From: Corynebacterium sp. NML98-0116 | Lineage (GTDB): Bacteria; Actinomycetota; Actinomycetes; Mycobacteriales; Mycobacteriaceae | NCBI RefSeq assembly: GCF_001767255.1 | Contig: NZ_CP017639.1 | Location: forward strand, 642,875 to 706,874 | DNA: 64,000 bases | Reading direction: 5' to 3' | Part shown: positions 34,339-38,552 of the stretch, in pieces | Layout: the number at the start of each line of letters is the position of its first letter | How positions within the stretch are numbered: the stretch's first letter is position 1 | Program-made: the position numbers and the translations under genes | Notes under the pieces: model-generated | Told to the model about the DNA's origin: nothing | Databases searched by the model: none | What the model saw: only the letters and a program-made list of their open reading frames with translations

Positions 34339-34947
34339 ATGAGCACTATGAGCACTGGCACGCCCCAAGACAAGCACACAGCGAAGCGCCGCAGGAAGCG
34401 GCTGGCTCGCACTGTGCCCGTGGCGTCCCGCGAGCAGCGCAAGCAGCAGCTCGCCGAGCAGAAGGCAAACAGGGAGTCGCGCTTCGCCGCCCCCAACTTA
34501 GCGACGCTCGCCCTGCTCATCATCGTGCTCATCGCCGTACTCGTGGCAGTAGCAGCCCCACTTCGTAATTTCTACGAGGGCCGCAACGAGATCGCGCGCG
34601 CCCAGGCAAATATCGAGCACTTGGAGCGCCGCCAGGCGGACCTTGAACGCGAAATCGCGAAGTACGAGGACCCCGAGTATCTCAACCAGGTCGCCCGCCG
34701 CCGCCTCGGCGTGATGGAGCCCGGCGAGTCCGCCTGGCGAGTCATCGACCCCCGCATGACCCACGGCACCACCATCACCTCCGACGAGACCCCGGACGAC
34801 CGCGGCTGGGCCGTATTCCTCTGGGATTCCCTACGCGAGGTCCCCGAGGACGTCCCCGCTGACGCTCCTGAAGAATCGCCCGCCCCGGCAGAATCGCCTG
34901 CTCCCGAAGCGCCCGCGGAAGCACCTGCGGCGCCTGAAGCGCAGTAG
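34339..34947 (+). CDS. ftsB: Septum formation initiator FtsB/DivIC family protein
   Basis: Bitopic division protein that joins FtsL and FtsQ in the divisome. 202 residues: a basic cytosolic tail (1-50, KRRRKRLARTVP), one membrane helix at about 54-73 (LATLALLIIVLIAVLVAVAA), then an extracellular coiled coil at 77-110 (NEIARAQANIEHLERRQADLEREIAKYEDPEYLNQVARRRLGVMEPGE), which is the family signature, and a Pro/Ala/Glu-rich C-tail (about 155-202). It follows eno as in mycobacteria. In related genomes DUF501 comes next; here a 3-kb insertion starts right after its stop. Confidence 0.9.
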   Translation: MSTMSTGTPQDKHTAKRRRKRLARTVPVASREQRKQQLAEQKANRESRFAAPNLATLALLIIVLIAVLVAVAAPLRNFYEGRNEIARAQANIEHLERRQADLEREIAKYEDPEYLNQVARRRLGVMEPGESAWRVIDPRMTHGTTITSDETPDDRGWAVFLWDSLREVPEDVPADAPEESPAPAESPAPEAPAEAPAAPEAQ

Positions 34948-34970
34948 CCCGAAGCTAAAAGGTAGCAACA

Positions 34971-35025
34971 GGATTACTGCAATCCACTTTTTGCGCGCTC
35001 CCACCTGGATTATTCCAATCCTTTT
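34971..35025 (+). terminator. Two tandem GGATT/AATCC hairpins with T-runs
   Basis: GGATT (34971-34975) pairs with AATCC (34981-34985), followed by TTTTT at 34988-34992. A second GGATT (35007-35011) pairs with AATCC (35017-35021), followed by TTTT. Two short stems of identical sequence in a row after ftsB look like weak tandem terminators. Confidence 0.45.
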
Positions 35026-35111
35026 ACTCCCATTTGGAGAATCACCAGGCTTCCACCGACGCCACCCCGAGCGCTCCCGTCGACCGATTAGCAGCGTGCT
35101 ATTAGCAGCGT

Positions 35112-35205
35112 GTGATTAATGGAGTGCGACGCTGGTCGCCGAAAATCACCAAGCCCGGGGCAAACAGCGCGACCTGCATCGCACGACATCTAGCACACGC
35201 TTTTT
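35112..35205 (-). repeat. Repeat family A, copy 4 (diverged, inverted orientation)
   Basis: On the minus strand it reads AAAGCGTGTGCTAG...GTGCGATGCAGGTCGC...GATTTTCGGCGACCAGCGTCGCACTCC, matching copies 1-3 with both hairpin arms intact but a changed loop. Next to it, ATTAGCAGCGTG occurs twice (35090-35122). It marks the left edge of the insertion between ftsB and DUF501. Confidence 0.7.
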
Positions 35206-35275
35206 ACGCCCACGCTGGGGTCCAACAAGCGCAATCAAGAACCAGAACTGTGTAGCCTGAAACCAACCCAACGGC

Positions 35276-35380
35276 TTGCGACAACGAGAGGAGCAGTGGC
35301 TGGTTGATTACCTCACGCTTCCGAAGAGAAAGAAGCGCTCGAAGCTCACTGAGTTCTTCGGCTGGGTCCTTGGGTTTTAA
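35276..35380 (+). CDS. Possible small basic peptide ORF (34 aa)
   Basis: A TTG-started frame encodes a short peptide with WLVDYLTLPKRKKRSKL and an aromatic end (EFFGWVLGF). The charge pattern looks protein-like, but the start is weak and no ribosome site is in place; it could be the tail of a lost gene. Otherwise the 35206-35456 stretch holds only the ribosome site of the next gene. Confidence 0.2.
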   Translation: MRQREEQWLVDYLTLPKRKKRSKLTEFFGWVLGF

Positions 35381-35456
35381 CGTTTAACCAGGCAAGTTAA
35401 AGTATTCTCAATTCTGTTGTGCCGTTTGCATTACCAAGGTTGAAAGGAGGGAAGCG

Positions 35457-36641
35457 ATGGGGGTTCTGCGTATTGATATTGAGCCGTCCGTATTGGACTG
35501 GGCACTGCGACGTACGGGACTCAGTGACGAAAAGCTCCGTGCCACGTTTCCCAAGGTAAACGATTGGCGCTCAGGGGAGGAGCGTCCGACGCTCAACCAA
35601 GCGGAAGAGCTAGCGAAGAAAGCTCGTATCCCATTTGGACGGCTCCTTCTACAGGCGCCTTCTGGCGAAGAGACTGATTTACCTGATTTTCGTACTGTCA
35701 GAAATGAGCGTCTCGATGGGTTGAGTCCTGACCTGCAGGAAGTTATTCACTCCGCCGAGGCGCGCTTGGGGTGGTACGCGGATTACGCAGAGGAAGTTGG
35801 AATTCCCGGTCCTGAAATTCTGCGCTCTGCCCAAGATTCCACCAGTCCCGTCCTGGCCGCTCGCCAGGCTCGCATCGCTCTGGATCTTGATGAGACTTCT
35901 CCTATTGCTGGGCCAGAAAAAGTTACGACACTAACGCACCACATGGAAGATACAGGGATTCTAGTATCCCGGAATGCCATTGTTGGAAACTCTACTCAAC
36001 GTCATCTGAGTATTGATGAGTTCCGTGGATTCACCCTGATTGATGGGGAATACTGCCTGGTGTTTGTGAATACAAGTGACGCTAAAACTGCGCAGCTCTT
36101 CAGTCTCGCCCACGAGTTGGGTCATGTTGCTTTGGCGAAGGCTGGTATTTCTGACCACAGCGACCACCTGCGGGTAGAGCGCTGGTGTAACGAGTTTGCA
36201 GCGGCATTCATCGCCCCAGAGACTGCAGTGAAGGAACGGTACAACAAGAAGTGTTCTTTGCTCGACAACGTCACGTCTCTGGCAAGCGTGTTTGGCATCA
36301 GTAGGGAAGCGATGCTGTTGCGCTTGAAAGATATTTTCCTGATCGAGCAACAAGAGTTCGACGAAGTTATGCGATTGGTCCGTGTCAGGAAAGAAAAGAA
36401 AGCCACACAAGAGGGCGGCGGCGGTCCTTCGTTCCATGTTCTCGTTCGGTCTCGAGTCGGCGGACGATTCTTTGAGACGATCACCTTTGCCGCAAAGTCC
36501 GGACAAATTCCTGAGAGAGATGCTGCGCGGCTTCTTGGTGCTGCCTCGTATAAGTCCTTTGAGAACTTGGTGAAGAAAAGCGATTGGGCTAGCAGGGAGG
36601 CAGAGTACTTAGGAAGCAAATTTCAGCTGATCGGGGATTAG
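35457..36641 (+). CDS. ImmA/IrrE-family metallopeptidase with N-terminal helix-turn-helix-like region
   Basis: 394 residues. The N-terminal ~70 (VLDWALRRTGLSDEKLRATFPKVNDWRSGEERPTLNQAEELAKKARIPFGRLLL) resembles the Xre-like DNA-binding start of COG2856 proteins. The peptidase part holds HELGH at 219-223 (FSLAHELGHVAL) and a downstream NEFAAAFIAPE with E246 as likely third zinc ligand. The C-terminal ~90 residues (FHVLVRSRVGGRFFETITFAAKSGQIPERDAARLLG) are typical of the group that pairs with a toxin or effector. The group is known to cleave repressors or act as antitoxin. ATG follows AAAGGAGGG. The DUF3644 gene follows on the same strand after 96 bp. Less GC-rich than the flanks. Confidence 0.85.
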   Translation: MGVLRIDIEPSVLDWALRRTGLSDEKLRATFPKVNDWRSGEERPTLNQAEELAKKARIPFGRLLLQAPSGEETDLPDFRTVRNERLDGLSPDLQEVIHSAEARLGWYADYAEEVGIPGPEILRSAQDSTSPVLAARQARIALDLDETSPIAGPEKVTTLTHHMEDTGILVSRNAIVGNSTQRHLSIDEFRGFTLIDGEYCLVFVNTSDAKTAQLFSLAHELGHVALAKAGISDHSDHLRVERWCNEFAAAFIAPETAVKERYNKKCSLLDNVTSLASVFGISREAMLLRLKDIFLIEQQEFDEVMRLVRVRKEKKATQEGGGGPSFHVLVRSRVGGRFFETITFAAKSGQIPERDAARLLGAASYKSFENLVKKSDWASREAEYLGSKFQLIGD

Positions 36642-36737
36642 GTTTTAGAAAGCGCAGGCAGGACAGGGTGCGCAGCGAAACCAAAGGGATCGATATTAGA
36701 ACGTCTTTGCGCATCGATTCGAGTAAACTTTGGTGAT

Positions 36738-37754
36738 ATGTGTATCGATGAAGGAAACGAGCAGACAATTACCCGCTTGCTGGATAAGAGTGAGGAGGCG
36801 TTTGTTCTTGCTGTCGAACTGTACAATCGACCGAGCTTAAAATACGGTGCGGAAAGTTGTTCGATTTTGTTGTGCAATGCTTGGGAGCTGATGCTGAAAG
36901 CTCACATGATCAGAAAGTGGGGCATTGATTCAATTTACTTCAAAGATGATCCTAGTAGGACTCTTGCTCTTTCCGATTGTTTGAAGAGGGTTTTTACGAA
37001 TGAGAAGGATCCTCTTCGGGTAAACATGAAGAATGTGATGGAGTTTCGTAATACGAACACGCACTTCATTACAGACGAGTACGACTTGTTTTATGGGCCC
37101 TTCTTGCAGTCGTGCGTGGAAAACTATGCGGACAAGCTTTGGGAATTGCATAACCGTTCGGTAAGCGAGCTCATCCCAGACAATCGGTTGGCCTTGGCAA
37201 TGAGAAGAGGTGCAATCGTTCCTGACGTTATTCGGACAAAGTATGACGCTGCAGTTGCGCAGGAACTACTTGCCCGGCGGAAAGATGTTGCGGATGCTAT
37301 CGGGGCTGAAGGAAATCAGAGGATCGCGGCGACTTACGAGACCTCGTTGAGGCTGGTTAAAAAGAAGAATGATGCAGATTTGAATGTTTACATTCAAAAC
37401 GGATCGGAGCATGGCATCGCCATCGTCAAGGATGTGAAAGATGCCGTTAGCTTTTATCCTTATACTGCTGGTAACGCGACTAAAAAGATCGATTCTTTGT
37501 TAAAGAAAAGAGGCATTACTTTTTGCTTCAATGGTTCAGTGAAAGAGAAGTTTACTACGTATGCTTTCCAGCTCTTTACCAAAGCGTACGAGATGAAAGG
37601 CGATGAGCGCTTCTCCTACGACCGTAAGACTGCGGGAGAGAAAACGAGCAATTGGATATATTCCGAGGCAGCAGTCGAATTTATCGCGCATCAAGTTGAA
37701 AAAGACCCTGGTCACTGTCTTGATCAGTTAAGAAGGAAAATTAATACAAAATAA
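36738..37754 (+). CDS. DUF3644-like protein with HEPN-type Arg-x4-His motif
   Basis: 338 residues. The first ~150 match the DUF3644 layout: EEAFVLAVELYNRP, CSILLCNAWELMLKAHMIRK, SLSDCL-type helix (LALSDCLKRVF), then VMEFRNTNTHFI. R104 and H109 form the R-x4-H motif of HEPN ribonucleases, in the right place at the end of a helix bundle. The rest (about 190-338) is unassigned, lysine-rich and low in GC. A -10-like TAAACT (36724-36729) lies so close to the ATG that the message is probably leaderless; no good ribosome site is present. ATCGAT occurs three times around this promoter. Expected role: RNA-cutting effector of a toxin-antitoxin or anti-phage pair with the preceding gene (inference). Confidence 0.75.
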   Translation: MCIDEGNEQTITRLLDKSEEAFVLAVELYNRPSLKYGAESCSILLCNAWELMLKAHMIRKWGIDSIYFKDDPSRTLALSDCLKRVFTNEKDPLRVNMKNVMEFRNTNTHFITDEYDLFYGPFLQSCVENYADKLWELHNRSVSELIPDNRLALAMRRGAIVPDVIRTKYDAAVAQELLARRKDVADAIGAEGNQRIAATYETSLRLVKKKNDADLNVYIQNGSEHGIAIVKDVKDAVSFYPYTAGNATKKIDSLLKKRGITFCFNGSVKEKFTTYAFQLFTKAYEMKGDERFSYDRKTAGEKTSNWIYSEAAVEFIAHQVEKDPGHCLDQLRRKINTK

Positions 37755-37997
37755 CTGAGCCGCAAATCGCCTTCGAAAAGTAAAACACCAACCCTTGGAG
37801 CAAAGGAATTCTCAGGTCGTTTGACCCTACTCCCATTCGGGAACCCAGCTGTATCCTTCTCGGGTTGGTGCTGTGATACACATTCTACGCAACCTTAGCC
37901 AGTTAGGCAATGCTCCATGACTGATTGTGCAAGAAGCAGCTGAAGCCTTAACCCATCCCACCGCACCGTTCCACCACCGCCCACCTCGTGTGGAACA

Positions 37998-38552
37998 ATG
38001 TTGCTCATGCAACCGACTCAAGAGGATCTCAATATCATTCAGGAGCAGCTCGGCCGCGCGCCTCGCGGTGTGCTGGAAATTTCCTACCGCACGCCGGATG
38101 GCCAGCCTGCGGTGGTCAAGACTGCACCCAAGCTTGACGACGGCACTCCGTTCCCCACGCTCTACTATCTGACGGACCGCCGTCTCACGGCCGAGGCTTC
38201 GCGTTTGGAGGGCGCTCAGGTGATGAAGTGGATGGAGGCCCGCCTGGCCGAGGACGAGGACTTGCAGAAGGATTACCGCCGTGCCCACGAGTACTTTTTG
38301 GCGAAGCGCAACGAGATTGAGGATTTGGGTACGGACTTCTCTGGCGGCGGCATGCCGGATCGCGTGAAGTGCCTGCACGTGCTGATTGCGTACGCGTTGG
38401 CGGAGGGCCCGGAGCACTTCCGTTTCGGTACGGAGGCTGTGGCGCTCGCTGCTGAGCACGGCAACCTGCGCGGCACCGCGATCCCTGCCGACTGGCCGAC
38501 GCTCGAAGACCTCGGCATCACGCTCGCGGAGGCGGGGGAGCGCCTCGCATGA
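37998..38552 (+). CDS. DUF501 family protein
   Basis: 184 residues, conserved in actinobacteria between ftsB and ppx, function unknown. Recognisable stretches: IIQEQLGRAPRGVLEISYRTPDGQPAVVKTAPKLDDGTPFPTLYYLTDRRL, KDYRRAHEYFLAKRNEI, and MPDRVKCLHVLIAYALAEG with a conserved Cys-x-His. ATG at 37998 or 38007. Its last four bases overlap the ppx start (ATGA). The preceding gap, 37755-37997, holds no gene that I can support. Confidence 0.9.
   Translation: MLLMQPTQEDLNIIQEQLGRAPRGVLEISYRTPDGQPAVVKTAPKLDDGTPFPTLYYLTDRRLTAEASRLEGAQVMKWMEARLAEDEDLQKDYRRAHEYFLAKRNEIEDLGTDFSGGGMPDRVKCLHVLIAYALAEGPEHFRFGTEAVALAAEHGNLRGTAIPADWPTLEDLGITLAEAGERLA

Follow-up and report, generated by a model that had tools for sequence, protein, structure and literature searches.

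A DUF3644 HEPN gene beside a VapB52-type peptidase gene without its toxin in Corynebacterium: probably neighbours by history rather than partners

Two genes between ftsB and the DUF501 gene

We analyzed a 64,000-nucleotide stretch of the genome of Corynebacterium sp. NML98-0116 (contig NZ_CP017639.1, positions 642,875 to 706,874; this whole stretch is called the window), in which two genes on the same strand, 96 bp apart, lie between ftsB and the DUF501 gene (Table 1). The first encodes an ImmA/IrrE (M78) peptidase and the second a DUF3644 protein. A preliminary description had placed a candidate two-gene defence module at 35100-37754, in which the peptidase would control an RNA-cutting HEPN effector. 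Both open reading frames (ORFs) are real, and the proposed start takes in about 350 bp ahead of the first of them. The claim that some 3 kb are inserted into an otherwise contiguous gene order also held: 3,050 bp separate the ftsB stop from the DUF501 start in the window, compared with 8 bp between an ftsB-like ORF and DUF501 in three relatives (L037, L038, and L040; the DivIC domain was checked with Pfam on L040 alone). The GC fraction was 0.44-0.55 in the insert, lower than in the neighbouring bins that cover ftsB and DUF501-ppx (0.61-0.67).

Table 1. Features of the ftsB-DUF501 interval and its flanks, in window coordinates
Feature	Coordinates	Strand	Evidence
DUF3644/EC042_2821 HEPN protein, 338 residues; probable stand-alone RNase effector (predicted)	36738..37754	+	Pfam, PADLOC PDC-S19, AlphaFold model, fold searches
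R104 of HEPN motif	37047..37049	+	invariant in 16/16 and 90/90 aligned sequences
H109 of HEPN motif	37062..37064	+	invariant in 16/16 and 90/90 aligned sequences
C-terminal part of DUF3644 protein, residues 232-338; less conserved, winged-helix-like in model, REase-like by Pfam name	37431..37751	+	PF18740, model, fold searches, conservation
TAAACT, -10-like box exactly 8 nt 5′ of ATG; probable own leaderless promoter of DUF3644 gene (predicted)	36724..36729	+	TANNNT-N8-start enrichment
Approximate recently exchanged segment relative to G022	36590..37900 (from about 36,600)	.	100-bp identity bins
ImmA/IrrE (M78) peptidase with HTH-like N-terminal part and C-terminal domain, 394 residues; VapB52/RmrA-type antitoxin relative without DUF4411 toxin gene	35457..36641	+	PF06114, PADLOC capP/RmrA, PDB 9vzy_A
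HELGH zinc motif of peptidase, residues 219-223	36111..36125	+	
Phe-Arg pair F78-R79 of peptidase, at place of VapB52 'FR' motif	35688..35693	+	alignments; role from available text of PMC13273310
ftsB/DivIC-like septum gene, left flank	34339..34947	+	PF04977, E 1.4e-15
DUF501 gene, right flank	37998..38552	+	PF04417, E 3.9e-29

The DUF3644 protein and its mobile surroundings

The DUF3644 protein matched the Pfam families DUF3644 (PF12358, E 8.1e-53) and EC042_2821 (PF18740, E 3.7e-21). Its full-length match to the PADLOC model for phage-defence candidate PDC-S19 (PDLC04949, E 5e-145) places it in the PDC-S19/DUF3644 family, and its PHROGs match, phrog_9605, is of unknown function. EC042_2821, which overlaps DUF3644, is listed as a HEPN family in the available text of a 2013 survey, with winged helix-turn-helix and restriction-endonuclease (REase) fusions and occurrence in restriction-modification (R-M) operons (PMC3710099). 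Within the openly licensed literature, DUF3644 and EC042_2821 were found only in that survey, PDC-S19 was not found, and no paper testing the function of the DUF3644 family was found.

The HEPN motif R104-x4-H109 reads R-N-T-N-T-H. Its two residues are among the invariant positions of the protein, 15 of 17 of which fall in the first part, and mean pairwise column identity was 0.64 over residues 1-140 and 0.41-0.42 beyond. In the AlphaFold model (mean predicted local distance difference test score, pLDDT, 87.7), helix 92-107 has R104 close to its end, and H109 comes directly after the helix. In a VIA-align search with the model, residues 2-150 aligned with HEPN, HEPN-MNT, Csm6, or related entries in each of the first 22 rows (Z 9.7-7.6), and the first plainly unrelated row was a designed protein at Z 6.8. 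Two points tell against this assignment: helical bundles with Z below about 13 may share no more than a common arrangement, and the best Foldseek rows, although they were HEPN toxins, had E > 0.1, with nothing at E <= 0.001. A sequence search for related solved structures returned 0 matches. Taking the searches together, the N-terminal part of the modelled protein is HEPN-like in fold.

DUF3644 was present in 12 of 201 sampled genomes of the genus (E <= 1e-5) and nearly full length in nine; with the Pfam profile, a phylum sample of 396 genomes gave 12 positives, the window's genome included. Among 50,697 phage records, 45 carried the gene. Their hosts were streptococcal (27, mostly satellites), staphylococcal (10), Corynebacterium (five, namely Poushou and its relatives, at 53% identity), Listeria (two), and Flavonifractor (one), and an integrase lay within 2 kb of DUF3644 in all six annotated phage regions that were opened out of the 45 records. 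Plasmid records matched more rarely (4 of 72,556). Two Corynebacterium genomes carry the gene beside a methylase-ResIII pair, and genome G192 carries it in a Poushou-like prophage, in which a short metallo-protease gene lies at a distance of about 3 kb.

For a wider view of the surroundings, we used the best 80 of 336 confirmed relatives on genome contigs and the best 80 of 142 on viral contigs; 159 of these 160 loci had a DUF3644 ORF and formed 101 clusters at 90% identity, 54 of them with more than 3 kb on both sides. Neighbours were counted as ORFs of at least 110 residues within 1.5 kb in 64 genome-derived clusters, with families taken from the first 25 of 68 and the first 25 of 60; the families overlap, and their counts are not to be summed. 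Direct upstream neighbours (61 cases) included Eco57I (eight), N6_Mtase (seven), and M78 (two, one being the window's own cluster), and direct downstream neighbours (58 cases) included phage integrases (nine), ResIII (four), and Methylase_S (three). Such integrase-adjacent phage and satellite regions and R-M neighbourhoods are characteristic of mobile defence genes. Together with the PDC-S19 match and the 2013 survey text, they bear out the claim that the family is linked to defence. The full-length match, the R-x4-H HEPN motif, and the R-M or mobile context of the kind described in that text all agree with PDC-S19, and only the placement of the window's cluster next to a gene for a helix-turn-helix (HTH)-M78 protein sets it apart.

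The C-terminal part of the protein has prompted another view, in which DUF3644 would act on DNA through a REase-like C-terminal part as an accessory to R-M systems, the HEPN part being regulatory. The PF18740 match and the frequent R-M neighbours speak for it, as does the REase fold that the available text of the survey describes for the C-terminal domain of EC042_2821 (PMC3710099). Conservation points the other way, since Y308 is the only invariant residue in the C-terminal part, against 15 in the HEPN part; no invariant acidic residue is present there, and nothing resembling a PD-(D/E)XK set is conspicuous. A separate model of the C-terminal part (mean pLDDT 93.5) gave only weak and mostly winged-helix-like matches, among them an Xrn1 region (Z 6.2) and MerR-type proteins (Z 5.5), both taken to be winged helices; a REase fold was absent from the fold lists shown for this part. 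We consider a DNA-acting DUF3644 very unlikely, and REase as the main activity was tentatively set aside because no conserved motif was seen in the C-terminal part.

Among described systems, Tha of a Staphylococcus aureus prophage is similar in being a single prophage-carried HEPN RNase with an ArgX4His motif, according to the available text (PMC11087260). Its HEPN domain is C-terminal (residues 184-296 of 301 in the same text), whereas that of the window protein is N-terminal and joined to a different second domain. Because the domain order differs, we did not file DUF3644 as Tha, which was compared by description and not by sequence. Phages 80alpha and PhiNM2 do not appear by name in the 45 phage records that carry DUF3644.

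The DUF3644 gene appears to have its own promoter, judged from the -10-like box ahead of its start. A TANNNT box separated from the start codon by exactly 8 nt precedes 5 of 10 Corynebacterium homologues, compared with 57 of 10,031 background ATG or GTG triplets. The homologues in which it was missing are L008 and L009 (both in R-M operons), L004, L005, and L097. This enrichment suggests that a leaderless promoter is conserved and moves together with the gene. The arrangement TANNNT-N8-ATG was seen in the window, L006, L007, L175, and L177, and the rest of their upstream DNA looks unlike.

The peptidase and its usual partner

The first gene was claimed to encode a HELGH peptidase with a DNA-binding-like N-terminus, and both parts of this claim were supported. 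The zinc motif is present, and the protein matched Peptidase_M78 (PF06114, E 2.8e-15), PADLOC capP (E 1.1e-16), and PADLOC models of RmrA (E 3.6e-16 to 6.9e-5). Pfam gave no HTH match in the peptidase; the N-terminal assignment comes from an alignment of residues 8-362 with chain A of PDB entry 9vzy (E 6.7e-20), annotated as an 'HTH cro/C1-type domain-containing protein'. The same entry contains a DUF4411 chain. A literature search under the code 9vzy turned up no paper on that structure, and we therefore took the entry to be the VapBC52 system on the basis of its partner and domain plan.

VapBC52 (Rv2514c-Rv2515c) combines an HTH-M78 antitoxin with a DUF4411-type PIN toxin. According to the available text of a 2026 paper, the N-terminal part of VapB52 is required for toxin binding, the M78 part cleaves the protein itself on single-stranded DNA (ssDNA), probably at the 'FR' motif, and the C-terminal part occludes the PIN active site (PMC13273310). 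The window peptidase aligns with 9vzy_A and keeps both HExxH and FR, as expected of an HTH-M78 antitoxin, its HTH part being assigned from that alignment. It differs in having Ser at the position of the VapB52 switch Cys, and neither the window locus nor genome G000 has a DUF4411 gene. Corynebacterium relatives have Ser and, less often, Thr or Gly at this position (aligned with window 36111-36170), and Cys was seen in L267; the switch may thus differ in the genus. RosmerTA (RmrA/RmrT) offers a second likeness, in which an ImmA-domain antitoxin stands next to an effector and the window peptidase matches RmrA models. In contrast to RosmerTA, nothing marks DUF3644 as a cognate toxin, and neutralization is only putative.

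The regular partner of the fused HTH-peptidase is a DUF4411-like PIN toxin, contrary to the claim that the peptidase controls the HEPN effector as a dedicated pair. In the genus sample, the 50 strongest peptidase places (E <= 7.3e-41) comprised 41 with a DUF4411-like PIN match directly downstream, three with DUF3644, and six with neither; a few of the 41 matches are short or broken, and Pfam confirmed DUF4411 in both that were tested. The three places with DUF3644 belong to one species cluster: the window, G050 of the same species, and G022 of a sister species. On plasmids from different genera, the peptidase gene overlapped a DUF4411-like gene in five of five loci opened out of 96 records. 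No remnant of a PIN toxin was found at 35401-38050 beyond noise (best E 3.1), and G000 gave no DUF4411 match, so that the directly downstream DUF4411 gene of VapBC52 is missing here. G050 and G022 have one DUF4411 match each, located elsewhere with another copy of the peptidase.

Other peptidase loci in which DUF4411 was not detected are L027, L267, L269, L276, L279, and L283. An internal gap interrupts the peptidase match itself in three of them (L027, L267, and L269), suggesting that toxin-less forms may arise repeatedly.

Probable neighbours by history

Only in the window's species cluster is the fused HTH-peptidase gene an immediate neighbour of DUF3644; none of the other 100 of the 101 clusters, nor of the other 158 of the 159 loci, shows this arrangement. 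Of the nine genomes with DUF3644 at full length, five (G012, G013, G035, G079, and G192) had no peptidase relative (E <= 1e-5), and in G190 the two families are about 373 kb apart. The 58 loci removed by dereplication included six with M78 within 3 kb (L176, L182, L183, L204, L219, and L251), and only L176 had a fused HTH-M78.

Several observations weigh against treating the two genes as unconnected. M78 lay within 3 kb of DUF3644 in 23 of 101 clusters (22 of 100 without the window's own) and was the next ORF in 11 of 101 (10 of 100). In L176, DUF3644 and a fused HTH-M78 protein of 340 residues (28% identical to the window peptidase over residues 135-301) are 1.6 kb apart and encoded on opposite strands, with the fused gene beyond an integrase. 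At the locus itself, DUF3644 occupies the place expected of the toxin gene, on the same strand. The window and G050 share 35,800-37,800 at 99.5-100% identity, a stretch that takes in roughly 70% of the peptidase gene from its 3′ end, and the peptidase is intact in two of the three genomes. Between the window and G022, the ratio of non-synonymous to synonymous substitution rates (dN/dS) of the peptidase was about 0.12 (0.069/0.579), with lower values in neighbouring genes (0.02-0.09). The peptidase has thus been under constraint, part of which may predate the loss of the toxin.

If M78 and DUF3644 formed a dedicated two-gene conflict system, their adjacency in the window would be explained, as would the short ImmA proteins that are the next ORF elsewhere (for example, HTH-M78-DUF3644 in L239) and the nearby fused gene in L176. 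However, the M78 proteins of the 22 other clusters are short and unfused (82-235 residues; weakest in L138, 82 residues and 17.5 bits), and 18 of these 22 clusters have an integrase in the locus. Of the 42 clusters with an integrase in the locus, 18 had M78 at a distance of up to 3 kb, compared with 5 of the 59 in which none was found (Fisher P 7e-5), both gene types being detected by profiles built from few seeds among ORFs of at least 60 residues. We read this association as reflecting shared lysogeny modules of prophages, and some of the short M78 genes could still be functionally linked to their DUF3644 neighbours. The fused relatives, for their part, pair with DUF4411. We rejected the dedicated system, which we hold to be very improbable, because the fused form does not recur beside DUF3644 in the other 158 loci. 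The earlier proposal of a two-gene conflict system thus survives in its effector, with a HEPN-like fold, an invariant R-x4-H motif, and membership of a defence family, and is not supported in its pairing; a broader adjacency to M78 does exist, mostly at integrase loci and with unfused proteins.

Some of these loci have a characteristic layout. In the prophage-like runs of L239 (6139-7966) and L166 (5889-7963), a small gene (HTH or unassigned) comes first, then a short M78 gene, DUF3644, and an integrase. L097 (6400-8501) and L113 (6513-8594) are also prophage-like, with an HTH or small gene and a short M78 gene flanking DUF3644. The prophage-like contig of L176 (1-4662) carries, one after another, DUF3644, an integrase, the fused HTH-M78 gene, and a separate short M78 gene; in L177, which is nearly its twin, the fused gene is missing.

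The comparison with G022 gave a mosaic: identity was 98-100% over 36,600-37,900, 77-96% over the peptidase, and mostly 92-97% over DUF501. The breakpoints indicate that DUF3644 and its upstream region were exchanged without most of the peptidase. The DUF3644 protein sequence is unchanged between the two genomes, and the peptidase frame of G022 is broken early, a break that may be an error in a draft genome.

These data also bear on a toxin swap, in which, within one Corynebacterium species cluster, a VapB52/RmrA-type antitoxin that had lost its PIN toxin would now control the DUF3644 HEPN RNase. ssDNA from phage replication would cause the M78 part to cut the N-terminal part of its own protein, and DUF3644 would be released or activated. 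The position and strand of DUF3644, the retained HELGH motif and FR pair, the dN/dS of the peptidase, and the near-identity of its 3′ portion together with DUF3644 in the window and G050 are all compatible with such a swap. From the available texts, ImmA-domain antitoxins pair with different toxins in RosmerTA (PMC10440598), and ssDNA-triggered self-cleavage is reported for VapB52 (PMC13273310). The broken peptidase frame of G022 beside an unchanged DUF3644 protein argues against the swap, as do the -10-like box of DUF3644 itself, its occurrence in five of nine genomes with no peptidase relative, the confinement of the pair to one species cluster, and the Ser at the switch position. On balance, we judge the swap unlikely.

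The ftsB-DUF501 interval (34948-37997) is a variable insertion spot, in which relatives hold unrelated ORFs: an acetamidase/formamidase-like ORF in G020 (L035) and an ORF with no Pfam match in G021 (L036). A short reading frame with a basic, conserved tail lies just 5′ of the peptidase gene at about 35292-35381, and in G050 (L064) it belongs to a longer ORF beside an extra insert of about 0.8-0.9 kb. The search for target-site repeats around the insert yielded only a 13-nt near-repeat (35025 and 37828), one of four short two-copy families, which often arise by chance. A generic scan found one promoter-like element where 2.2 were expected and five terminator-like elements where 4.0 were expected.

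We think it likely that the adjacent genes are neighbours by history and not partners, a stand-alone mobile HEPN defence gene having come to lie beside an orphan antitoxin. DUF3644 would then be a self-sufficient anti-phage HEPN RNase that, by analogy, most likely works like Tha, remaining silent until a signal and then causing abortive infection by cutting RNA. In an uninfected cell the protein would be inactive; its less conserved C-terminal part may sense a signal of infection, whereupon R104 and H109, at the cleft of a putative dimer, would cut RNA and stop the growth of the infected cell. Phages, satellites, and homologous recombination probably spread the gene by itself, together with its own leaderless promoter. 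For the peptidase, the most likely role is that of a VapB52-like antitoxin left as an orphan. It would be the surviving antitoxin of a VapBC52/RosmerTA-like module, and its HTH part, ssDNA-triggered M78 self-cleavage, and C-terminal toxin-blocking part would have acted on a DUF4411 PIN toxin. That toxin gene was probably replaced as the DUF3644 segment recombined between the 3′ end of the antitoxin gene and DUF501.

If the swap did take place, it would provide a clear natural example of an antitoxin that exchanged one partner for another with an unrelated nuclease fold, and DUF3644, otherwise a single-gene effector, would gain an ssDNA trigger. With the two genes as neighbours by history, the locus instead illustrates how recombination can create what looks temptingly like a two-gene defence module. 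It makes a case against annotating M78 and DUF3644 as a system, and it draws attention to DUF3644 as a widespread, apparently untested single-gene HEPN candidate.

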